Part shown: one piece after another, positions 1 through 10,932 of the stretch
Layout: every line of letters begins with the position of its first letter
Position numbering within the stretch: the stretch's first letter is position 1
NCBI GenBank assembly: GCA_002299005.1
Contig: DBMZ01000166.1
Location: 1 to 16,778, forward strand
From: Alphaproteobacteria bacterium UBA685
GTDB taxonomy: Bacteria; Pseudomonadota; Alphaproteobacteria; Puniceispirillales; Puniceispirillaceae
Direction: 5' to 3'
DNA length: 16,778 nt
Notes under the pieces: generated by a model
The model's database searches: none
Seen by the model: only the letters and a program-made list of their open reading frames with translations
What the model was told of the DNA's origin: nothing
Translations under genes and position numbers: made by a program

Positions 1-728
1 TTTAGGCCCATTGAGCCACAAATCATCACACGATCGCTGGTCGCGTCAAACGCTGGCACGCCCAAATCATCAAATAATGTGCCATTTTCAATCAGCGTGG
101 TGATACGCCCCATCTTCGGGCTGTCTTGCCTTGTTGTGGTCGGATAATAACGCAATTGCCCTGCGGCCATCTCGCCGATAAGCGGGTCTTTTTTGGTCTC
201 TTCCACCAGCCACGCACCATAGGCAAGCTCATCCACATCACGGCATGTATGGGTTAAGATAATTTCTTCATATTGCTCATAAACCTCAGGATCACGAATA
301 AGAGAGGCAAACGGCGCGATGCCTGTGCCTGTGGCAATCATATATAATCTCTTGCCGGGGATAAGCGCATCAAGAACCAATGTGCCAACCGGCTTGGTTT
401 TCATGATGATATAATCACCGGGGACAATTTTCTGAAGCTGTGAGGTAAGCGGGCCATCTTGTACTTTAATCGAATAAAAAGACAACGTCTCAGACCAGAA
501 AGGCGCGGCAATGGAATAGGCGCGCAAAAGGGGCTTGCCTGCGTCATTTAACAAGCCGATCATCACAAATTCACCAGAGCGAAACCGGAAACTGGCTGGG
601 CGCTCAACCTCAAAATGGAACAAGCGATCATTCCAATGTTTGACAGACAAAACTTTGACAGCGTCCTTGGTATCAGACGCAACGCCAACAGACGAATTAG
701 CCGCAGAAATCATATCAGATGCGCTCAT
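1..728 (-). CDS. fpr: Ferredoxin--NADP+ reductase, 3' end cut off by the window edge
   Basis: This FAD enzyme moves electrons between NADPH and ferredoxin or flavodoxin in the cytoplasm. 242 residues are visible. The FAD-binding beta-barrel carries the RAYS motif at residues 69-72. The NADP-binding domain carries GTGIAP at 134-139, and the late CGSM segment starts at Cys237, just before the window ends. Bacterial Fpr proteins are about 255-275 residues, so only the extreme C-terminus is missing. The ATG at 728-726 is chosen because GAGGG lies 10 bases upstream of it. An in-frame ATG at 737-735 lies only one base from that GAGGG and is less likely. The gene lies downstream of the cytochrome c gene but is separated from it by a terminator. 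Electron supply to the sulfite reductase encoded at 3045-4694 is a reasonable inference, not shown. Confidence 0.93.
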   Translation of the reverse strand, partial: MSASDMISAANSSVGVASDTKDAVKVLSVKHWNDRLFHFEVERPASFRFRSGEFVMIGLLNDAGKPLLRAYSIAAPFWSETLSFYSIKVQDGPLTSQLQKIVPGDYIIMKTKPVGTLVLDALIPGKRLYMIATGTGIAPFASLIRDPEVYEQYEEIILTHTCRDVDELAYGAWLVEETKKDPLIGEMAAGQLRYYPTTTRQDSPKMGRITTLIENGTLFDDLGVPAFDATSDRVMICGSMGL

Positions 729-776
729 ATCTATCATACCCTCTTGAAAAGCCTGATGGCCTATACTGTGCCTTTT

Positions 777-805
777 GATATCAACCACATAGGCATTTAT
801 GTCAA
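777..805 (-). promoter_or_regulatory. Candidate promoter for fpr
   Basis: On the minus strand a perfect TTGACA (805-800) is followed after 17 bases by GATATC (782-777), which matches a sigma-70 -10 box at only three of six positions. The -10 overlaps a perfect 10-base palindrome, TTGATATCAA, at 775-784, which could be an operator. The position, about 50 bases upstream of the fpr ATG, is sensible, but the weak -10 keeps confidence low. Confidence 0.35.
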
Positions 806-907: not shown

Positions 908-1291
908 CTAGTTGCTAAAGCTTTTTAGATACGCAATGACATTGACGCGATCTTTTTCTTTGCGCAGGCCAGCGAACGCCATTCTTGTGCCTTTAATGTA
1001 GGCCTTTGGCTTTGTTAAGTAAGCGTCCAACGTTGCCTCATCCCACACAATATCAGCGGCAACCATCGCCTTTGAATATTTTGTATAGCTCTCAAGGCTA
1101 CCAGCTTTGCGGCCGAAGAGATTCACAAGGTGCGGGCCTGTTTTGTTTTTCTCAGCATCGACCACATGGCACGCTTTGCATTTCTTAAACACCTTCGCGC
1201 CTGCCTCAATATCACCGGCAAAAGTGGGGCTTGCGCTCAAAGCTGTTACAATGAGGGCCGCACCGATAGCTGATTTAACCATTTTTGACAT
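908..1291 (-). CDS. Periplasmic class I c-type cytochrome
   Basis: A small soluble monoheme cytochrome c, 127 residues before processing, likely an electron carrier in the periplasm. Residues 1-25 are a Sec signal peptide with a hydrophobic core and a likely cleavage after the Ala at 25 (TFA|GD). The heme-attachment motif is CKACH at 38-42, with Cys38, Cys41 and the proximal ligand His42. Met104 in the GTRMAF segment is the likely distal ligand. The mature size of about 100 residues and the G-T-x-M context fit the cytochrome c2/c550 type. AAGGAT precedes the ATG. It has its own promoter and terminator, so it is a one-gene unit. Its redox partner is not in the window; bc1 complex to oxidase transfer is typical of the family but inferred. 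Confidence 0.93.
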   Translation of the reverse strand: MSKMVKSAIGAALIVTALSASPTFAGDIEAGAKVFKKCKACHVVDAEKNKTGPHLVNLFGRKAGSLESYTKYSKAMVAADIVWDEATLDAYLTKPKAYIKGTRMAFAGLRKEKDRVNVIAYLKSFSN

Positions 1292-1490: not shown

Positions 1491-2657
1491 ATGACATCCT
1501 TGTATATTGAAAAAACCCCGCTTGAGGCGACAAGACGCCCTGCTCCAATTTATTGGGGCTTGCTGATTGTTGCGTTGATGTTGGGGATTTGGTCATTGCT
1601 TGATGCGCAATTTGCGCAGGTGATTATCTCAACAATTGCCGATGCCTATCTTCAGGTAACAACTTTTGTTGCCGCAACCTTGCTTATTTTTTATGGGCTT
1701 GAGCGCCTCTTTGGGTTTAATGCGGTTCAGCTACTATCACGCTCTGGCGCATGGCAGGTGCCGATCGCGGCAGCTCTTGGCGCATTGCCCGGTTGCGGCG
1801 GGGCGATTATTGTTGTCACAAATTATGTCTCAGGCCGCCTTAGCTTTGGGGCTGTGCTTGCCACATTGACCGCCACCATGGGAGATGCCGCCTTTTTGCT
1901 GATCGCCAAAGAGCCTGTCACAGGCATGCTTATCATGGTTATTGGCCTTGTTGTTGGCACGGTGTCTGGCTATTTGGTAGACGCTATTCACGGCAAAGAT
2001 TTCCTTCGCCCAAAAGACAGACAGTCAAAAGACGATACCACCGCCGCCTCAAGACAAGATGCGCCAGAATTTGTTAACCGCATTTGGCTTCTTGCGATTA
2101 TCCCTGGCATTGTCATCGGGGTGTTTGGCGCGTTTCAAATCGATCTCGACCCGCTCTTTGCCAACCAGTTAACAGACCAACCTGTCACAGTCTTTGGCTT
2201 CATGGCTGGTTTATTATGCTTTGCGATGTGGCTGTTACCGCGCTTCTTAAAACAGGGCCAATCTGAACAGCCAACAAGCAACATAGTGCGTCAAACAATT
2301 GCTGACACAAATTTTGTTACGGGCTGGGTCATCATTGCCTTTTTGGTATTTGAAGTCTCTTTATTCGTCACAGGCTATGAGCTATCTGAATTATTCCAAG
2401 GGCTGACTATCTGGTTGCCGCTGATGGCTGTTGCGATTGGTCTGTTGCCCGGATGTGGGCCGCAAGTGCTTGTCACAACCCTCTATTTGGCAGGCATTGT
2501 GCCGCTATCTGCGCAAATCGGTAATGCGATTAGCAATGATGGTGATGCGCTATTCCCCGCCATCGCGCTGGCACCAAAGGCAGCTTTGGTTGCGACACTT
2601 TATTCGACTGTCCCTGCGTTAATATTGGCCTATGGCTGGTATTTTTATCAGGCATAA
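1491..2657 (+). CDS. Multi-pass permease of the putative 10-TM heavy-metal exporter family
   Basis: A 388-residue inner-membrane protein with about ten hydrophobic segments. It resembles the family often annotated as putative manganese transporter or arsenic efflux protein (Pfam ArsP_2-like); assignment is by motif recall. The two halves are related: the first carries LPGCGG at 99-104 and a GD pair at 131-132, the second LPGCG at 319-323 and a GD pair at 350-351, with nearly equal spacing. A charged loop around residues 168-190 separates the halves. The substrate is unknown. There is no clear Shine-Dalgarno before the ATG at 1491, so the start is less certain than the frame. Its last 10 bases overlap the 3' end of the convergent DUF934 gene. 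The neighbouring sulfite-reduction genes leave a sulfur-related role possible but unproven. Confidence 0.8.
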   Translation: MTSLYIEKTPLEATRRPAPIYWGLLIVALMLGIWSLLDAQFAQVIISTIADAYLQVTTFVAATLLIFYGLERLFGFNAVQLLSRSGAWQVPIAAALGALPGCGGAIIVVTNYVSGRLSFGAVLATLTATMGDAAFLLIAKEPVTGMLIMVIGLVVGTVSGYLVDAIHGKDFLRPKDRQSKDDTTAASRQDAPEFVNRIWLLAIIPGIVIGVFGAFQIDLDPLFANQLTDQPVTVFGFMAGLLCFAMWLLPRFLKQGQSEQPTSNIVRQTIADTNFVTGWVIIAFLVFEVSLFVTGYELSELFQGLTIWLPLMAVAIGLLPGCGPQVLVTTLYLAGIVPLSAQIGNAISNDGDALFPAIALAPKAALVATLYSTVPALILAYGWYFYQA

Positions 2658-3052
2658 ATCTGCGCACGATAATTAACAGCCACACGATTAGCTTGCTCAA
2701 GCCAATGTCGCTCTGGCATCTTTGCCGCTTGTTCTTGGCTTATCAGCACCCCATCAAATCCTGATTGACGCGCATGACGATATTGATCACACACCAAGCC
2801 GCCCACCGCGATCACCCGGCCCTGATAGCCCCTATCGCGCAGACATCTTGCCGTTGAAAAGCCGCGCCCATCGGCTGGCGAGGCAAAGGAGATATGCACC
2901 TCTGCGATACCGTTTAGCACCTCATCCAAATCCTCTGGCGCCTCTTCCACTGTCACGGCGCGAATGGGGGTTAGGGCTTTATAGGCCGCAAACCCGTTAT
3001 CGGTGACATATATACCCGTTAAATTTATACTCGTTGAATTTACATCAGGCAT
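2648..3052 (-). CDS. DUF934 protein of the sulfite-reduction operon
   Basis: A 134-residue cytoplasmic protein of the DUF934 family (often labelled oxidoreductase), which is nearly always encoded beside sulfite or PAPS reductase genes; its biochemical role is unknown. The family hallmark is visible at about residues 62-101: a SFASPADGRGFS segment, then ARCLRDRGYQG, then a conserved IAVGG and SGFDG. The ATG at 3052-3050 is chosen because AAGGAGG lies 9 bases upstream, inside the end of the sulfite reductase gene. The start overlaps that gene's stop by 8 bases, implying translational coupling. A 32-residue upstream extension of the frame lies wholly inside the sulfite reductase gene and is not supported. 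In many relatives cysH lies between these two genes; here there is no room for it. Confidence 0.9.
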   Translation of the reverse strand: MPDVNSTSINLTGIYVTDNGFAAYKALTPIRAVTVEEAPEDLDEVLNGIAEVHISFASPADGRGFSTARCLRDRGYQGRVIAVGGLVCDQYRHARQSGFDGVLISQEQAAKMPERHWLEQANRVAVNYRAQIYA

Positions 3053-4694
3053 GATAAAGCACCTCCTTAAACGGGGTGATGCCAACGCGTTTATAATAGG
3101 CAAGAAAACTCTCATCCTTACCGGTCCGCTTGGCCAGATAATGGGCAATGATCCTATCTATCGCGCCGATAATTTGCTCATAAGAAAAGCCCGGCCCTGT
3201 GCGCTCACCAATTGCCGCATCCTGTGTGCCATCACCGCCGATGGTGATTTGGTAATTCTCCACCCCGGCCCTATCAAGGCCAAGAATGCCAATATGCCCG
3301 ACATGATGATGACCGCAAGCATTGATACAGCCTGAGATTTTAATTTTCATCGGGCCAATATCATATTCTGTTTTCAGCCCCTCAAAATGCGTTGCGATTT
3401 GCTGGGCGATGGTAATAGAGCGCGCCGTCGCAAGACTGCAATAATCAAGCCCCGGGCAGGCGATAATATCAGAGACGAGCCCAATATTTGCCGCCGCCAA
3501 ATCAGCCTCTTGCAAGGCTTGGTAAATGGCTAACAGATGTTCTTTTGGCACATGCGGTAAGATGATGTTTTGCTCATGGCTGACACGCAATTCATCATAC
3601 GCATAGGCCTTTGCCAGCTCTGCCATGACGCGCATTTGCGCCGTGCTCGCATCCCCCGGTGTCGCCCCTTGCTTCTTCAGCGATATGGTTATGCTGACAT
3701 GATTTTCATCACGGTGCGCATGCACTGATTGCCCCGCCCAGCGTGCAAAAGCAGGTGATAAGGCCATTTGCGCTTCAAGATCAAACGCGCTTGCCTTGCT
3801 AAGGTTAGGGAGGGCAAAATCATCTTTTATCTTGCGCAGTAACGTCTCTGATAGGGGGCGATGTGTCTTTTTGATTTGCGCAAAATAGGCGTCAATCTGC
3901 GCCTTTGTTTGCGCCAGCCCGTTCTCTTGCACAAGAATTTTGATACGCGCTTTATATTTATTATCACGCCTGCCATAGCGGTTATAAATATGCATCACCG
4001 CCTCAAGATAGCACAGCAAATCAGCCTTTGGCACAAACGCAGATAATTCTTGGCCAATAAGCGGCGTGCGCCCAAGACCGCCGCCTATCAAGATACGATA
4101 GCCCGTCTCACCATCCCTATTTTGGACAATCTGGATACCAATATCATGAAAGGCAATCACTGCCCTATCATTAGGAGCACCGCTGACAGCAATCTTAAAC
4201 TTACGCGGCAGGAAGGCAAATTCAGGATGCGCCGTTGACCATTGGCGCAGTAATTCAGCCACCATGCGCGGATCTTCAATTTCATCTGGTGCGCAGCCTG
4301 CGAAATGATCCGCTGTGACATTGCGAATACAATTGCCAGAGGTCTGGATAGCGTGCATATCCACCTCAGATAATGCCTCAAGCACATCGCCGACATCGGC
4401 TAATTTCATCCAATTAAACTGGATATTTTGACGCGTGGTGAAATGCCCATAGCCCTTATCCCAACGCTCAGCGATATCAGCTAATTTATGCATTTGGCGC
4501 GATGACAAGGTGCCATAAGGGATTGCCACCTGCAGCATATAGGCATGAAGCTGGAGATAGAGGCCATTTTGCAACCGAAAGGGCTTATACTCATCTTCGC
4601 TAAGCACACCGTCAATGCGACGTTGGGTAATCGTTCTAAATTCAGAGACTCTGTCTTTGACAAAATCTCTGTCAAAATCTTGATAATGATACAT
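3045..4694 (-). CDS. cysI: Sulfite reductase hemoprotein (siroheme, 4Fe-4S), nitrite/sulfite reductase family
   Basis: 549 residues, cytoplasmic. It reduces sulfite to sulfide with six electrons for cysteine synthesis. The four cysteines that bind the 4Fe-4S cluster and bridge to siroheme are Cys413 and Cys419 (CPGLDYC) and Cys456 and Cys460 (CINAC). Candidate substrate-binding basic residues are Arg88 (TTRQN), Arg124 (NCIRN) and Lys165/Lys167 (RKFK), matching the Arg/Arg/Lys/Lys set known in E. coli CysI. Two ferredoxin-like halves are present, as in the family. No flavoprotein CysJ gene is in the window, so ferredoxin is the likely donor. AGGA precedes the ATG, 8 bases after the DUF2849 gene. 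Nitrite as substrate cannot be excluded by sequence, but siroheme synthase, DUF2849, DUF934 and xsc nearby favour sulfite. Confidence 0.92.
   Translation of the reverse strand: MYHYQDFDRDFVKDRVSEFRTITQRRIDGVLSEDEYKPFRLQNGLYLQLHAYMLQVAIPYGTLSSRQMHKLADIAERWDKGYGHFTTRQNIQFNWMKLADVGDVLEALSEVDMHAIQTSGNCIRNVTADHFAGCAPDEIEDPRMVAELLRQWSTAHPEFAFLPRKFKIAVSGAPNDRAVIAFHDIGIQIVQNRDGETGYRILIGGGLGRTPLIGQELSAFVPKADLLCYLEAVMHIYNRYGRRDNKYKARIKILVQENGLAQTKAQIDAYFAQIKKTHRPLSETLLRKIKDDFALPNLSKASAFDLEAQMALSPAFARWAGQSVHAHRDENHVSITISLKKQGATPGDASTAQMRVMAELAKAYAYDELRVSHEQNIILPHVPKEHLLAIYQALQEADLAAANIGLVSDIIACPGLDYCSLATARSITIAQQIATHFEGLKTEYDIGPMKIKISGCINACGHHHVGHIGILGLDRAGVENYQITIGGDGTQDAAIGERTGPGFSYEQIIGAIDRIIAHYLAKRTGKDESFLAYYKRVGITPFKEVLYHA
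3060..3068 (-). promoter_or_regulatory. Ribosome-binding site that sets the DUF934 start
   Basis: On the minus strand AAGGAGG (3068-3062) lies within the last codons of the sulfite reductase gene, 9 bases before the ATG at 3052. It rules out the longer open frame starting upstream. Confidence 0.85.
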
Positions 4695-4702
4695 GGGCGA
4701 TC

Positions 4703-5047
4703 CTATCTTTTGCGATTTGCGACTAGTTGTTGGCCATTGCGATTATTGTGGTGATAATTACTTGGGCCTTTTGTGCGCAGTTGCTCTTTGGTACTAAGCG
4801 GCCAGCCAGCCTCATCAAGCGCGATGAGGTAAATGCCCACCGTTTGATTGGCATAGAGGCTTTGGCATTCACGCACCGCTTCTTCTGCGCTTGTCTCGGT
4901 TTTAAATTGCTTGGCATGCGTTACATCCCAAACCCATCTGCCCGTTGGTGATAGATAGACCACATCACCTGTCAAAAGCAGGTTAGCTGTGACGGCAAAA
5001 TACCGCGGATGCACCCCTTTGATGGTTTTAAGCTTGCTCTGTGACAT
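4703..5047 (-). CDS. DUF2849 protein of the sulfite-reduction operon
   Basis: A 114-residue cytoplasmic protein matching the DUF2849 family, found in alphaproteobacteria between siroheme synthase and sulfite reductase genes; its function is unknown. Visible family features are AVTANLLLTGDVVYLS near residues 18-33, a Trp-rich GRWVWD segment, an acidic-basic stretch resembling a helix, GIYLIAL, and the RTKGPSN signature near the C-terminus. The ATG at 5047-5045 is chosen for the AAGGAGG 9 bases upstream, inside the end of the siroheme synthase gene. The two genes overlap by 20 bases, so translation is probably coupled. A 14-residue longer frame exists but starts upstream of this site. The C-terminal tail is basic and Asn/Gln-rich. 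Confidence 0.88.
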   Translation of the reverse strand: MSQSKLKTIKGVHPRYFAVTANLLLTGDVVYLSPTGRWVWDVTHAKQFKTETSAEEAVRECQSLYANQTVGIYLIALDEAGWPLSTKEQLRTKGPSNYHHNNRNGQQLVANRKR

Positions 5048-6473
5048 GTGGCAGTGCCTCCTTCCACGCAAGAGGCCGCAAATTGGCAAGATGTGCCTGA
5101 TGCGGGGCTAGCCCTAAATAGATCAAAGCAGGCCCTGTGATATCTGCCTGTGCGATGGCACGCGGCAAATCACCGAGGCTGGTCACAAGCCAACCTTCAT
5201 CTTTGCGCGAAATATTCTCAGCTATCGTCACCTTTATCTGCGGCGGCGCGCCATGCATGATAAGCCGCCCTGAAAGATAAGACGCCGCGCGCACAGACAT
5301 ATAGACAGCTGCCGTAAAGTCATCCTCACGCAGGCCCTTGGCCATTTCACGCCAATCATGGTCCGCATAGCCATTCACATCATGACCTGTCAGGATACGA
5401 AAGCCTGAATTGCGCCCGCGCTTGGTAAGAGACGCCCCCATCTGCGCCGCCCCTGCACTAGCGCTTGTGAGGCCAGCGGCAATTTCAAAGGGGATATTAT
5501 AACCATCAAGGGCCGTAATCTCTTCATCTAGGCGGCCAAAAATGGTTGCATCACCTGATTTTAAGCGCACAAGTTTTTGACCTGTTTGCGCCTTTGCGAC
5601 CATCAGCGCATTGATATCAGCTTGACGCCATGAGGCTTCAAAGCCCTTTTTGCCAACCTCAATCACCTCAGCCTCTCGCCGGCATAGCTCTAGGATGGCG
5701 GGCGGCACAAGCCTGTCATGCAAGATGATATCTGCCTCATGCAAAAGACGGCGTGCTTGCATGGTCAGTAAATCAGGTGATCCCGGCCCTGCCCCGACAA
5801 ACCAGACAGGTGGCTGTGCTTGTGGCGCCCCGCCCATCTCAGCTAGCAGATATTCGCCATGCGCATGGGCACCTGCCCCATCCATCTGGCTATGTGCCCC
5901 CTCGAAATAGCGGGCCCAAAAATCACGTGCTTGCGGTGCCAAGAGTTGCGCGCCAACCTTTTCACGCAAAGCCCCTGCGACGCGCGCAAGCACACCATAA
6001 GATTGTGGCAAACGCTCTTCAAATTCCTTTTTTAAAAGGCGTGCCAAGACAGGCGCTTGCCCCTCGGTGCCAATCGCAATACTCAGCGGCGCACGGTCGA
6101 TAATCGCCGGCGTCGTAAAGGTACTAGCGGCCAGATTATCAATCACGCAAAAGGGGATATGGGCGGCTGTGAACAGCGCCATCAAAGACGCATCAGGGCC
6201 TGTGAGATAGACAAAGGCAATGGGAGGGCGCGCCTCATCATCACGATCAGAGGCATCAAAGGCGCGCGGATAATGCTTTATTGCCTGCCCTGTCCCCTTG
6301 TCTGTCATGTTCTTAATAAAGGCAGACAGCCCCTCTTCAGGCGCACTGGCGTAAATCTCAACCAGCGCTTCTGACTTAGCGACAAGCCGCGCTTTGGCAA
6401 CCGCATCATCCTCATTGCCGATAATGCAAATGCGCTTGTCTGTCACCTTTAAATAGATGGGAAAATGCTTCAT
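5028..6473 (-). CDS. cysG: Siroheme synthase, fused precorrin-2 dehydrogenase/ferrochelatase and uroporphyrinogen-III C-methyltransferase
   Basis: 481 residues, cytoplasmic. It makes siroheme, the cofactor of the sulfite reductase encoded downstream, from uroporphyrinogen III. The N-terminal half (about 1-180) is the NAD-dependent dehydrogenase/ferrochelatase, with the conserved Asp112 (VIDN) and PAIIDRAPLSIAI at 122-134, followed by PVLARLLKKEFE. A linker rich in Ala, Gly and His (about 190-222) leads to the SAM-dependent methyltransferase (about 223-465), with VGAGPGSPDLLT at 226-237, VRLKSGD at 302-308 and LTGHD at 361-365. The length fits bifunctional CysG (about 457-500). Oddly, the usual glycine-rich NAD motif is GNEDDA at 19-24, lacking the second glycine. 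AAGGAG lies 7 bases before the ATG. First gene of the operon. Confidence 0.94.
   Translation of the reverse strand: MKHFPIYLKVTDKRICIIGNEDDAVAKARLVAKSEALVEIYASAPEEGLSAFIKNMTDKGTGQAIKHYPRAFDASDRDDEARPPIAFVYLTGPDASLMALFTAAHIPFCVIDNLAASTFTTPAIIDRAPLSIAIGTEGQAPVLARLLKKEFEERLPQSYGVLARVAGALREKVGAQLLAPQARDFWARYFEGAHSQMDGAGAHAHGEYLLAEMGGAPQAQPPVWFVGAGPGSPDLLTMQARRLLHEADIILHDRLVPPAILELCRREAEVIEVGKKGFEASWRQADINALMVAKAQTGQKLVRLKSGDATIFGRLDEEITALDGYNIPFEIAAGLTSASAGAAQMGASLTKRGRNSGFRILTGHDVNGYADHDWREMAKGLREDDFTAAVYMSVRAASYLSGRLIMHGAPPQIKVTIAENISRKDEGWLVTSLGDLPRAIAQADITGPALIYLGLAPHQAHLANLRPLAWKEALPHVTEQA
5057..5063 (-). promoter_or_regulatory. Ribosome-binding site that sets the DUF2849 start
   Basis: AAGGAGG on the minus strand (5063-5057) lies 9 bases upstream of the ATG at 5047, within the last codons of the siroheme synthase gene. 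It supports the 114-residue form over the longer frame. Confidence 0.85.
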
Positions 6474-6521
6474 GACAGGCTCCTTTTTAAAAACCTTTAC
6501 AGAGCTGTCAATTTCGCAAAA

Positions 6522-6547
6522 TATTCTTAATCTACAATCGCAGAATA
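6522..6547. repeat. Short inverted repeat upstream of the siroheme synthase operon
   Basis: TATTCT (6522-6527) and AGAATA (6542-6547) form an inverted repeat with a 14-base spacer, 49 bases upstream of the cysG ATG in A/T-rich DNA. It could be a binding site for a sulfur-responsive regulator, but 6-bp arms in A/T-rich sequence can arise by chance. I found no convincing -35/-10 pair in this 161-base interval (6474-6634). Confidence 0.3.
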
Positions 6548-6634
6548 AGGGATTTAGTCAGATATTTCACAATTTCAGGAGAATTTTAGAAAATATTGCC
6601 TGCATGCGTGACATTACTAGCAAGCTATTCAGGC

Positions 6635-6672
6635 AAAAAAAAGAGCGCACCCTCATCATAAAGGTACGCTCT
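6635..6672 (-). terminator. Intrinsic terminator downstream of xsc
   Basis: Read on the minus strand, AGAGCGTACC (6672-6663) pairs with GGTGCGCTCT (6651-6642): ten pairs including one G-U wobble, with an 11-base loop, then a run of eight T (6642-6635). It begins about 30 bases after the xsc stop and makes xsc a unit separate from the sulfite-reduction operon. Confidence 0.9.
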
Positions 6673-6702
6673 AATTCATTAGATTTTGCTTAGTTTCGGA
6701 AG

Positions 6703-8481
6703 CTATGCCCCTTGCTGTGGGCGCATATCATCTTTGCTGATACCGGCAACCGCAACAGGCTTTTTCATTGCATCACGGCGGAAAGGCTCACCTAGCTCTT
6801 GGTTAAGCAACACTTCGATGAATGTCGTCTCGCCCTTATTCATTTGGGCATCAATCGCCGCATTTAGCGCGTCTTCCAAATTCGCCATTGAATCGACCTG
6901 AATACCCTTCACACCACAAGCCTCAGCGATACCAGCATATTGAACGCCTGTATCAAGCTCTGTGCCAACGAAATTATCTTCGAACCACAATGTTGTGTTA
7001 CGCTTCTCAGCACCCCACTGATAGTTGCGGAAGATAATCATTGTGATAGGCGGCCATTCATTACGACCAATCGCTGTCATTTCGTTCATTGAGATACCAA
7101 AGGCACCATCACCGGCAAAACCAATCACAGGCACATCAGGGCGACCAATTTTCGCACCCATAATCGCTGGCAGACCATAACCACAAGGGCCAAACAGACC
7201 TGGCGCAAGGTATTTGCGGCCATCTTCGAATGTTGGATAGGCGTTACCAATCGCACAGTTATTGCCAATATCTGATGAGATAATCGCATCTTGCGGCATC
7301 GCAGATGTAATCGCGCGCCATGCCATACGAGGTGACATTTTCTGTGGCTCTCTATCACGTGCGCGTTCATTCCAACTTGTGCCCGGATCATCATCTTCAT
7401 GGTCAAGCGAGGTAAGCTCTTGTGCCCAAGCTGATTTTGTTGTGGCAATCAGTGATTTACGTGCATCACGGCCCGCATCGCCAGCGGCATCACCTAATTT
7501 CGCCAATAGCTGTTCAGCCACTTTCTTGGCATCGCCGACGATACCAACAGACACAGGCTTTGTGAGGCCAATACGGTCAGGGTTGATATCAACCTGAATA
7601 ATCTTGGCATCTTTTGGCCAGTAATCAATGCCATAGCCCGGCAATGTTGAAAATGGGTTCAAGCGTGTACCCAATGCCAACACAACATCAGCCTTAGAGA
7701 TAAGCTCCATACCAGCCTTTGAGCCATTATAGCCAAGCGGGCCAGCAAATAGCGGATGTGAGCCCGGGAAAGCGTCATTATGCTGGTAACCACAACATAC
7801 TGGCGCATCAAGGCGTTCTGCCAATTTCATCGAGGCATCAATCGCGCCGCCAATCACGACACCAGCGCCGTTTAGCATCACAGGGAATTTCGCTGATGAG
7901 AGCAATTCAGCCGCTTGTGCTAGTGCATCTTCACCGCCTGATGGGCGCTCAAATTCAACAACAGCTGGCAATTCAATATCAACAACCTGCGTCCAGAAAT
8001 CGCGTGGCACGTTAATCTGTGCAGGGGCTGAGGCGCGTTTTGCTTGCAAAATAACACGGTTCAAAACTTCAGCGATACGAGAGGCATCACGCACTTCTTC
8101 TTGGTAGGCAACCATATCTTTGAACAAAGCCATTTGCTCAACTTCTTGGAAACCACCTTGGCCGATTGTCTTATTCGCGGCTTGCGGTGTCACCAATAGA
8201 AGCGGTGTGTGGTTCCAATAAGCGGTCTTCACAGGTGTCACAAAATTTGTGATACCCGGGCCATTTTGCGCAACCATCATTGACATCTTACCAGACGCTC
8301 TTGTGAAGCCATCGGCCATCATGCCCGCATTACATTCATGAGCGGCATCCCAAAATGTGATGCCAGCTTGAGGGAACAAGTCAGAAATAGGCATCATGGC
8401 TGAACCGATGATCCCAAAAGCATGCTCAATACCATGCATTTGAAGTACTTTTACAAAAGCTTCTTCCGTAGTCATTTTCAT
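6703..8481 (-). CDS. xsc: Sulfoacetaldehyde acetyltransferase, thiamine-diphosphate enzyme
   Basis: 592 residues, cytoplasmic. Xsc converts sulfoacetaldehyde and phosphate to acetyl phosphate and sulfite, the C-S bond cleavage step of taurine and related sulfonate breakdown. The fold is the three-domain acetolactate-synthase type. The cofactor-activating Glu49 lies in AAHECNAG, and the thiamine-diphosphate motif runs from GDG at 457-459 to Asn486 with exactly 26 residues between. Segments typical of Xsc rather than acetolactate synthase include IGSAMMPISDLFP at 25-37, TFWDAAHE at 42-49 and VTPVKTAYWNHTPLLL. The length fits the family. GGGAGG lies 9 bases before the ATG. No phosphotransacetylase, taurine aminotransferase or taurine transporter gene is in the window. 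The acetyl phosphate presumably goes to acetyl-CoA via an enzyme encoded elsewhere. Confidence 0.93.
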   Translation of the reverse strand: MKMTTEEAFVKVLQMHGIEHAFGIIGSAMMPISDLFPQAGITFWDAAHECNAGMMADGFTRASGKMSMMVAQNGPGITNFVTPVKTAYWNHTPLLLVTPQAANKTIGQGGFQEVEQMALFKDMVAYQEEVRDASRIAEVLNRVILQAKRASAPAQINVPRDFWTQVVDIELPAVVEFERPSGGEDALAQAAELLSSAKFPVMLNGAGVVIGGAIDASMKLAERLDAPVCCGYQHNDAFPGSHPLFAGPLGYNGSKAGMELISKADVVLALGTRLNPFSTLPGYGIDYWPKDAKIIQVDINPDRIGLTKPVSVGIVGDAKKVAEQLLAKLGDAAGDAGRDARKSLIATTKSAWAQELTSLDHEDDDPGTSWNERARDREPQKMSPRMAWRAITSAMPQDAIISSDIGNNCAIGNAYPTFEDGRKYLAPGLFGPCGYGLPAIMGAKIGRPDVPVIGFAGDGAFGISMNEMTAIGRNEWPPITMIIFRNYQWGAEKRNTTLWFEDNFVGTELDTGVQYAGIAEACGVKGIQVDSMANLEDALNAAIDAQMNKGETTFIEVLLNQELGEPFRRDAMKKPVAVAGISKDDMRPQQGA

Positions 8482-8742: not shown

Positions 8743-10932
8743 ATGTCACATAAAGACGCGTTTGAACAATGGCAGAAACAAGCTGATAAAGAGCTGAAGC
8801 GCACATCTGACAGTGCTGAGCCACATGGCAAGCAAACGCTCGAAGGCATCACCATAAAGCCGCTCTATACCAAAGAAGACAGCGCCTCATTACCACATAT
8901 CGATAATCTGCCCGGCCAAGCGCCCTTTACCAGAGGCCCGCGCGCCTCAATGTATGTTGGCCGCCCTTGGACAATCCGCCAATATGCCGGATTTTCAACC
9001 GCCAAAGCCTCTAATGAGTTCTATCGCAAAGCGCTTGCCGCCGGGCAAAAGGGCCTGTCGGTTGCCTTCGACCTTGCCACCCATCGCGGCTATGATTCAG
9101 ACCATGCGCGCGTCGTTGGTGATGTCGGCAAGGCAGGTGTTGCGATTGACTCTGTCGAAGATATGAAAACCCTGTTTGATGCCATCCCGCTTGATGAGAT
9201 GTCTGTCTCTATGACAATGAATGGCGCGGTTCTGCCTGTTTTGGCAGGCTTTATTGTGGCAGGCGAAGAGCAAGGCATTGATAAATCCAAGCTATCTGGC
9301 ACGATTCAAAATGACATCTTAAAAGAATTCATGGTGCGCAATACCTATATTTACCCGCCAGAGCCGTCTATGCGCATTGTCTCTGACATCATTGGCTATA
9401 CCGCCCAGCATATGCCGAAATTTAACTCAATCTCTATCTCTGGCTATCATATGCAAGAGGCTGGTGCGAATAATGTGCAAGAGCTTGCCTTTACCTTGGC
9501 AGATGGTCTTGAATATGTCCGCACAGCTTGCCGCAATGGCATGAATGTGGATGATTTTGCCCCGCGCCTATCCTTCTTCTTTGCGATTGGCATGAACTTC
9601 TTTATGGAGGCCGCCAAGCTTCGCGCCGCGCGCACACTTTGGGCGGTTTGGATGGAAAAGCTATTTGATCCGCAAGACCAAAAATCATTGATGCTGCGCA
9701 CGCATTGCCAGACGTCTGGCGCGTCTTTGCAAGAACAAGACCCGTATAATAACATCGTGCGCACAACCATCGAGGCACTTGCCGCCGCGCTTGGTGGCAC
9801 ACAATCGTTGCACACAAATTCATTTGATGAGGCGATTGCCCTGCCGACCCCAACATCATCGCGCATTGCCCGCAACACACAGCTTATCCTGCAACATGAA
9901 ACAGGCATCACAGACACAGTTGACCCGCTTGCTGGCTCTTACTATGTCGAAAGCCTGACCAATGAGCTGATTGAAAAAGCCAATGCGCTTATCGAACAGG
10001 TTGAAGAGATGGGCGGCATGACAAAGGCCGTGCAAGAGGGCTTCCCGAAGGCTGAGATTGAAAAAGTGGCCGCCGCAAGACAAGCGCATATTGATAGCGG
10101 CTCACAAGTCATTGTGGGTGTGAATAAATACCAGCCGCAAGAAGCCACCGATATTGATATTCTTGAAATTGATAATCAGGCTGTACGCGAAGAACAAATA
10201 GCCCAGCTTGAAGCCATCAAAGCAAAACGTGATGATGCACAAGTCGCAAAGACGCTTGAAGATTTGCGCCATTATGCCAAGACAGGCACAGGCAATTTGC
10301 TAGAGGCAAGTGTCGAAGCCATGCGTGCAAGAGCCACCGTGGGCGAGGTCTCAGATGCATTAGGCGATGTCTTTAACCGCTATCAAGGCACGCCAGAGCT
10401 TGTGACAGGCGTTTATCGTGACGCCTTTGGCGATGATGCGGTCTTTGATGAGATTGAAGCCGCCCTTGGCAAATTCAAGACCATCACCGAACAAGCCCCA
10501 TCTCTTTATATGGCAAAGCTTGGTCAAGATGGCCATGATAGAGGCGCCAAAGTTATTGCCTCTGCCTTTAGTGACATGGGCATGGATGTGCATGTTGGCA
10601 CCCTGTTCGAGACACCAGCCGAGGCGGCAGATAGTGCGATTGGCATGGGCGCCCATATCATCGGCATCTCAACACTTGCCGCAGGCCATAAGACCTTAAT
10701 CCCACAGCTTATCAGCCATCTCAAAGATAAGGGGGCTGAGGATATTATGGTGATCTGCGGCGGCGTTATCCCTGAACAGGATTACCAATTCCTCTATGAT
10801 GCAGGCGTCAAGGCTATCTTTGGGCCTGGCACAAATATCACAAAAGCGGCCCTAGAGACGATTGATGCGGCCCATGATCAGATGAGCCGCATGCATAATT
10901 ATCGTCAAGCACGTCTTAATCAAGAGAGCTAA
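8743..10932 (+). CDS. Methylmalonyl-CoA mutase, single-chain adenosylcobalamin enzyme
   Basis: 729 residues, cytoplasmic. It interconverts (R)-methylmalonyl-CoA and succinyl-CoA, the last step in feeding propionyl-CoA into the TCA cycle. The N-terminal catalytic barrel (about 60-560) carries [13 protein letters not shown] at 74-86, SMTMNGAV at 156-163, PPEPSMR at 205-211 and the Tyr235-His236 pair in GYHMQEAG. The C-terminal cobalamin domain (about 590-725) carries DGHDRG at 596-601, whose His598 is the lower axial ligand of B12, then [10 protein letters not shown] and ICGGVIP. The close match to homodimeric methylmalonyl-CoA mutases and the length favour this over ethylmalonyl-CoA mutase or isobutyryl-CoA mutase. 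GAGG lies 7 bases before the ATG. No epimerase, carboxylase or MeaB chaperone gene is nearby. The gene ends with a 4-base overlap with the convergent htpG. Confidence 0.93.

Follow-up and report, generated by a model that had tools for sequence, protein, structure and literature searches.

Organization of the xsc and sulfite reductase genes

The window analyzed here is an entire contig (C138, 16,778 nucleotides) of Alphaproteobacteria bacterium UBA685 (G000), an assembly of 1.74 Mb in 186 contigs that is 91.9% complete. Its minus strand carries, in this order, xsc, which encodes a predicted sulfoacetaldehyde acetyltransferase, an intrinsic terminator, and cysG-DUF2849-cysI-DUF934, four overlapping or closely spaced genes of which cysI encodes a putative sulfite reductase. 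A sequence-only reading of this DNA had proposed from this arrangement a possible route from sulfonate sulfur to cysteine. We analyzed the locus of this uncultured marine bacterium, which we place in SAR116, in three sets of genomes: 136 genomes of its order (43 of high quality), 61 of its family, and the four of its genus g1 (G000, G044, G045 and G046).

6703..8481, minus strand: xsc, sulfoacetaldehyde acetyltransferase, 592 amino acids (TIGR03457, 933 bits)
6642..6672, minus strand: intrinsic terminator 3′ of xsc, with a 14-pair stem, a 3-base loop and a tail of seven T
5028..6473, minus strand: cysG, siroheme synthase, 481 amino acids (NF007922, 423.3 bits, cut-off 400)
4703..5047, minus strand: DUF2849 protein (PF11011), start corrected to the ATG at 5047, which is preceded by AAGGAGG
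3045..4694, minus strand: cysI, NirA-type siroheme sulfite reductase, 549 amino acids (PF01077, PF03460 and motifs)
2648..3052, minus strand: DUF934 protein (PF06073), start corrected to the ATG at 3052, which is preceded by AAGGAGG

Pfam and NCBIfam matches confirmed the order of the five genes on one strand that the earlier reading had given. Xsc matches its curated model over its full length (residues 2-578) and above the cut-off (TIGR03457, 933 versus 676.4 bits), and reaches 1041.8 bits against NF005713 (cut-off 620); by the curated model it is a sulfoacetaldehyde acetyltransferase, with a predicted phosphate-dependent cleavage of sulfoacetaldehyde. The claim that a terminator after xsc makes the two gene sets separate units also held, with the stem and T tail described above running from 6672 to 6642. 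This site is among the two longest terminator-like sites of the window, which show no excess overall (20 versus 17.0 ± 3.5 in shuffles), and hairpins were also seen by eye 3′ of xsc in G044 and G046. Both DUF2849 and DUF934 pass the Pfam cut-offs and, after start correction, overlap their upstream neighbors by 20 and 8 bases. Because of these overlapping ATG starts, each preceded by AAGGAGG, the four cys genes look like one operon.

CysI carries both siroheme/4Fe-4S reductase domains (PF01077 and PF03460) above the Pfam cut-offs, as well as the pairs C413-x5-C419 and C456-x3-C460, which we take to be the siroheme/4Fe-4S cluster cysteines. At residue 162 it reads LPRKFK, as in maize sulfite reductase (5h8v), whereas the nitrite reductase 3b0h reads LPRKWN; we assume that lysine at the last position, as opposed to the asparagine of nitrite reductase, is the meaningful difference, and that 3vlx, a listed nitrite reductase chain with LPRKWK, is an engineered form. 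CysI matches 11 NCBIfam models, each time with a score under the cut-off; these include the equivalog models TIGR02041 (124.4 of 756.55 bits) and TIGR02042 (121.8 of 731.5 bits), and the best match is to the NirA family NF007126 (227.7 bits, cut-off 523). The CysI of G015 is likewise under the NCBIfam CysI/sir cut-off. Two CysI relatives named Candidatus Puniceispirillaceae are 74% and 77% identical to the window protein, in line with the SAR116 placement.

Sulfate reduction, taurine genes and sulfite oxidation

CysH, the PAPS/APS reductase, was searched with TIGR00434 and found in none of the 136 genomes of the order, the 43 high-quality ones included; the control was positive in 9 of 14 known genomes. 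A full sulfate assimilation pathway, which would speak against the route proposed earlier, did not emerge, since no CysH was found in the order. The lack of cysH in the operon, which the earlier reading had not mentioned, can be placed among four annotated operons. Falsirhodobacter and Rhodovulum, both Rhodobacterales, have cysG or cobA, DUF2849, cysI, cysH and DUF934, in the same order as the window but with cysH between cysI and DUF934, and in Sphingomonas cysH comes after DUF934. The operon on Sinorhizobium pSymB has no cysH, like the window and like six of six loci of the sister family f4. Because CysH was not found in the order, sulfite for CysI would have to come from another source, and sulfate is predicted to be unable to feed this reductase through CysH. 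The missing CysH is a stronger argument for a metabolic link between Xsc and CysI than their neighborhood.

In the four g1 genomes, PF01507 (the ATP sulfurylase protein CysD, or CysH) had no match at E ≤ 1e-10, and a Sat-type enzyme was not searched for. Across the family PF01507 occurs in 13 of 61 genomes, at 14 places. Six of these places were inspected, and five have an adjoining CysN-like gene by eye. NCBIfam scoring of three of the proteins gave two CysD, both among the five linked to CysN, and one DndC, at the second place in G015. We therefore rejected these matches as signs of sulfate reduction, as the scored ones are two CysD and one DndC and the CysH model finds nothing. Five genomes thus have CysD-type and CysN-like genes (by eye, two of them scored) but no CysH (L131, L132, L135, L137 and L128). 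In G058, a gene read by eye as mannose-1-phosphate guanylyltransferase stands beside the CysD-type and CysN-like genes, a hint of a possible role in the sulfation of glycans. The DndC-type gene (L141), a DNA phosphorothioation gene, lies in G015, a single-contig SAR116 genome.

A taurine dissimilation set was detected in G000 by similarity to proteins of G001, G004 and G059. It comprises aptA-tauA on contig C129 (L207) and tauR-pta-soeA-soeB on contig C66 (L236), so that tauA, an omega-aminotransferase, tauR, pta, soeA and soeB are all present. A soeC gene (DmsC/SoeC) was not found in G000, and C66 ends just past soeB. The aminotransferase of G004 is an omega-aminotransferase of the AptA type (605.9 bits, cut-off 500), to which the G000 protein is 79% identical; an omega-amino acid aminotransferase able to replace Tpa is described in the consulted part of PMC12625764. 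We assigned the Soe names from gene order and with reference to PMC12262181, part of which reports soeABC in SAR116 and treats SsuD or MsmA as suppliers of the sulfite that SoeABC oxidizes; no Soe model is among the NCBIfam matches listed. In G044 the taurine locus lies on one stretch as soeCBA-pta-tauR / aptA-tauA-tauB-tauC; in G046 this locus is divided between two contigs, and in G000 two short contigs carry parts of it. A further stretch of G044 (L162) contains a run of N at about 4,700-4,800 (X in the translated frame), possibly an assembly gap.

The presence of soeA and soeB beside tauR and pta bears directly on the earlier reading, which had set this locus apart as one where sulfite is reduced instead of oxidized and had looked to relatives without soeABC. 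Neither expectation survives in G000 itself: the idea that a sulfite dehydrogenase is lacking was rejected on SoeA and SoeB, though SoeC was not found, and since these genes sit in the taurine locus, sulfite would be oxidizable as well. A taurine-linked dehydrogenase is therefore present, but no second close xsc was found, the next match in G000 being 32% identical. SoeA was found in 51 of 61 family genomes, with no link to cysI (p = 1.0). PF03404, the SoxC/SorA type, occurs in 22 of 61 family genomes and within g1 only in G044, which is without cysI; its association with the absence of cysI gave p = 0.13. A SoxC-type sulfite dehydrogenase gene followed by a cytochrome-like gene was observed in G044 (L156; TIGR04555, 633.4 bits, scored in this genome only) and in G025 (L154).

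Distribution, neighborhood and origin of the operon

Four further genes of the window lie around the two units.

1491..2657, plus strand: arsP2, ArsP_2-family permease (PF11449, 444 bits), convergent with the cys operon with a 10-base overlap
908..1291, minus strand: small cytochrome c (PF00034)
3..788, minus strand: fpr, ferredoxin-NADP reductase, cut by the contig end (NF008178, 111.2 bits, below the cut-off of 390)
8743..10932, plus strand: methylmalonyl-CoA mutase (MCM), divergent from xsc (NF006944, 1183.1 bits)

The truncated fpr at 3-788, also new with respect to the earlier reading, is 81% identical to that of G044. Among the annotated operons, those of Falsirhodobacter and Sinorhizobium are followed by fpr, and those of Rhodovulum and Sphingomonas are not; the window differs in having arsP2 and the cytochrome gene between DUF934 and fpr, and xsc upstream. 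No Rfam match was obtained in the window at gathering scores, and a known RNA element was rejected on these grounds. The permease had no match in the other xsc loci compared; its export substrate might be sulfite or a different anion and not a metal.

Only in G000, among the four g1 genomes, are xsc and cysG on one contig. In G045 and G046, one contig carries arsP2-DUF934-cysI-DUF2849-cysG (arsP2 being truncated in G046) and a second carries xsc-MCM; each of these contigs ends in the stretch between or inside xsc and the cys operon, a layout that fits adjacency without proving it. The methylmalonyl-CoA mutase gene adjoins xsc in G044, G045 and G046 too, which makes synteny within the genus. 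G044 is 98% complete and has no CysI at E ≤ 1e-30; its arsP2 lies directly beside xsc, with 62 bases between the frames, whereas arsP2 adjoins the cys operon in G045 and G046. The Xsc tree leaves branching within g1 unresolved, and either a loss of the operon in G044 or a gain in the others may account for the difference.

Recurrence of the adjacency in related genomes, which the earlier reading had looked for, was not found outside g1; the whole arrangement was seen only in G000, and one of its congeners, G044, is without the operon. No CysI-like stretch was detected near xsc, even at E ≤ 1, in the 80 named loci, the best 80 of 581 candidates, 54 of which are flanked by 5 kb or more on each side; one of them (L031) belongs to g1 and ends just past xsc, so that it is uninformative on adjacency. 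A second set, made up of 22 other SAR116 stretches that contain xsc, span 8.6 to 20 kb and overlap in part with the named loci, gave none at E ≤ 1e-3; flanks vary in length. As far as searched, the xsc-cys adjacency is a peculiarity of g1. In this genus xsc lies away from the taurine locus, whereas in G001, G004, G006 and G008 (genus g2) it is within a cluster with soe and aminotransferase genes. In G015 and G054 the cys genes are found amid COX15, aspS and groEL, as read by eye.

CysI was found in 22 of 136 genomes of the order and 16 of 61 of the family, including an interrupted gene in G005, one with an internal stop in G058, short fragments in G023 and G057 and partial genes in G051, G052 and G055. 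The G005 gene, split into two matches with a stop inside (L123 and L127, contig C24), may mark the decay of sulfite reduction in a SAR116 genome. In f4, cysG and a DUF934 match occur at all six CysI loci and a DUF2849 match at five; neither Xsc nor CysH gave a match there across 9.6 to 18 kb of sequence per locus. In a tree built from 48 CysI rows, the g1 and f4 proteins make up one clade (100/99), with two Rhodobacterales outside. In an earlier tree without f4, the g1 proteins (with that of G052) stood next to the two Rhodobacterales, and the addition of f4 led us to reject an operon taken straight from Rhodobacterales. The groEL-linked CysI of other SAR116 genera, represented by six proteins in the 48-row tree, split off on a long branch of their own in either tree. 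The CysH-less operon is thus common to two families of the order, and this type of CysI is shared with f4, through either descent or exchange within the order. A 4,042-base contig of G052 (L167, C38; genus g9) carries a g1-like cysI-DUF934-fpr, with CysI 71% identical to that of the window and Fpr 86% identical to that of G044, and may reflect horizontal transfer or a wrongly binned contig.

Possible sources and fates of sulfite in SAR116

The explanation that we favor, and consider probable when taken as a whole, is that sulfur is derived from sulfonates, and perhaps from other sulfite donors, instead of sulfate, through Xsc and CysI, with sulfite as the point where the two separate transcription units of the locus come together. 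Taurine would be taken up and deaminated to sulfoacetaldehyde, which Xsc would split into sulfite and acetyl phosphate. Soe would oxidize some of this sulfite to sulfate for energy, and some would be reduced to sulfide by CysI, a predicted ferredoxin-linked siroheme reductase, the sulfide being fixed as cysteine by a CysK-type enzyme. On this gene content sulfite is best read as a branch point between oxidation and assimilation, and Xsc is a clear candidate source of sulfite for CysI, as G000 also has tauA, the omega-aminotransferase, tauR and pta. The proposal of a route from sulfonate sulfur to cysteine is thus retained in part: the absence of CysH and the taurine genes of G000 speak for it, and the genus-limited adjacency and the oxidation genes against it.

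Several observations weigh against this explanation. The adjacency by itself is weak evidence for a metabolic link, and because a terminator lies between the units, a shared transcript of xsc and the cys operon is not expected and the link by neighborhood is weak. Co-occurrence of cysI and xsc in the family is only suggestive: Xsc (at least 75% identity, fragments included) is found in 38 of 61 genomes, namely in 13 of the 16 with CysI versus 25 of the 45 others (Fisher p = 0.08; our association tests of cysI with xsc, soeA, PF03404 and cysKM are uncorrected for relatedness, and the one with xsc also for the incompleteness of genomes). No xsc was detected in three genomes with cysI (G048, G058 and G010; 67, 69 and 96% complete), and G044 has xsc and no cysI. 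Homologues of cysKM score below the curated cut-off in all 42 of 61 family genomes that match, including the one on C18 of G000, and are unlinked to cysI (13/16 versus 29/45, p = 0.35); none was found in G044 at E ≤ 1e-50. A candidate for another source of sulfite, an SsuD-like protein, occurs in 28 of 61 family genomes, always below the curated cut-off.

Some of these observations would also suit neighbors that are functionally unrelated, with Xsc acting only in taurine dissimilation with SoeABC and the reductase fed by methanesulfonate, alkanesulfonates, thiosulfate-derived sulfite or free sulfite. The adjacency found only in g1, the grouping of soeAB with pta and tauR within the taurine locus, the three cysI genomes without detected xsc, the f4 operons without an xsc match in six of six stretches, and the proposal in part of PMC12262181 that SsuD and MsmA supply SoeABC with sulfite all agree with such a separation. 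We nevertheless regard it as unlikely, for there would be one cytosolic sulfite pool, so that sulfite made by Xsc would reach CysI unless channeled, and no SsuD-like protein was found in G000 at E ≤ 1e-40. Much less credit goes to a reductase that mainly detoxifies or buffers the sulfite made by Xsc: its operon does lie beside a sulfite-producing gene and its distribution is patchy, but SoeA and SoeB of a sulfite dehydrogenase are already in the genome, and the gene content of the operon is that of annotated alphaproteobacterial assimilation operons.

The two remaining alternatives appear to us highly improbable. CysI would be a ferredoxin nitrite reductase if the top NCBIfam score, to the NirA family albeit below its cut-off, were decisive, and its closest solved chain is also a NirA (1zj8, presumably of the Mycobacterium type); the LPRKFK motif of the maize enzyme in place of LPRKWN argues otherwise, as do DUF2849 and DUF934, whose genes stand in one operon with cysH in Falsirhodobacter, Rhodovulum and Sphingomonas. 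An artefact, whether a chimeric metagenome contig or a CysH missed through incompleteness, would fit an assembly in this many contigs that is below full completeness and an adjacency that is whole on a single contig only. It is countered by G045 and G046, where this operon likewise adjoins arsP2, the contig breaks fall towards xsc and the xsc-MCM synteny is seen elsewhere, and by the search for CysH, which was negative in all 43 high-quality genomes of the order. G015, a single-contig genome, has xsc, cysI and soeABC-like genes, with cysH not detected.

Assimilation of sulfite released by Xsc is already known in Rhodobacter capsulatus: part of PMC11423573 reports taurine as a sole sulfur source via Tpa and Xsc, and no anaerobic phototrophic growth of an xsc deletion mutant on taurine as the sole sulfur source. 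The likeness lies in the use, predicted for G000, of Xsc-released sulfite as a sulfur source, whereas R. capsulatus also grows on sulfate; CysH was not found in the order to which G000 belongs, and SoeAB is present in G000. Incomplete assimilatory sulfate reduction, as observed here, was published in 2011 for SAR116 strains HIMB100 and IMCC1322 in PMC3368413, which in the part consulted proposes exogenous reduced sulfur such as dimethylsulfoniopropionate (DMSP) and dimethyl sulfoxide (DMSO); our interpretation differs in that the sulfite reductase retained here would point to sulfite donors too. The main text of PMC12262181 contains none of the terms sulfite reductase, xsc, taurine, cysH and cysI, supplements being outside this scope. 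No report linking Xsc to a sulfite reductase without CysH in SAR116 was found among the titles and abstract openings listed for the open-access literature.

SAR116 is a common surface-ocean group. We tentatively propose, as a possibility somewhat short of an even chance, that those of its members that keep this operon are sulfite-only assimilators that would make no use of sulfate in sulfate-rich sea water and would draw on sulfonates through Xsc and a CysH-less reductase, DMSP being an alternative and not the sole source. If this is true, the sulfur supply of SAR116 would comprise DMSP-type reduced sulfur and plankton sulfonates, and one sulfite pool would join energy gain through Soe with cysteine synthesis through CysI.

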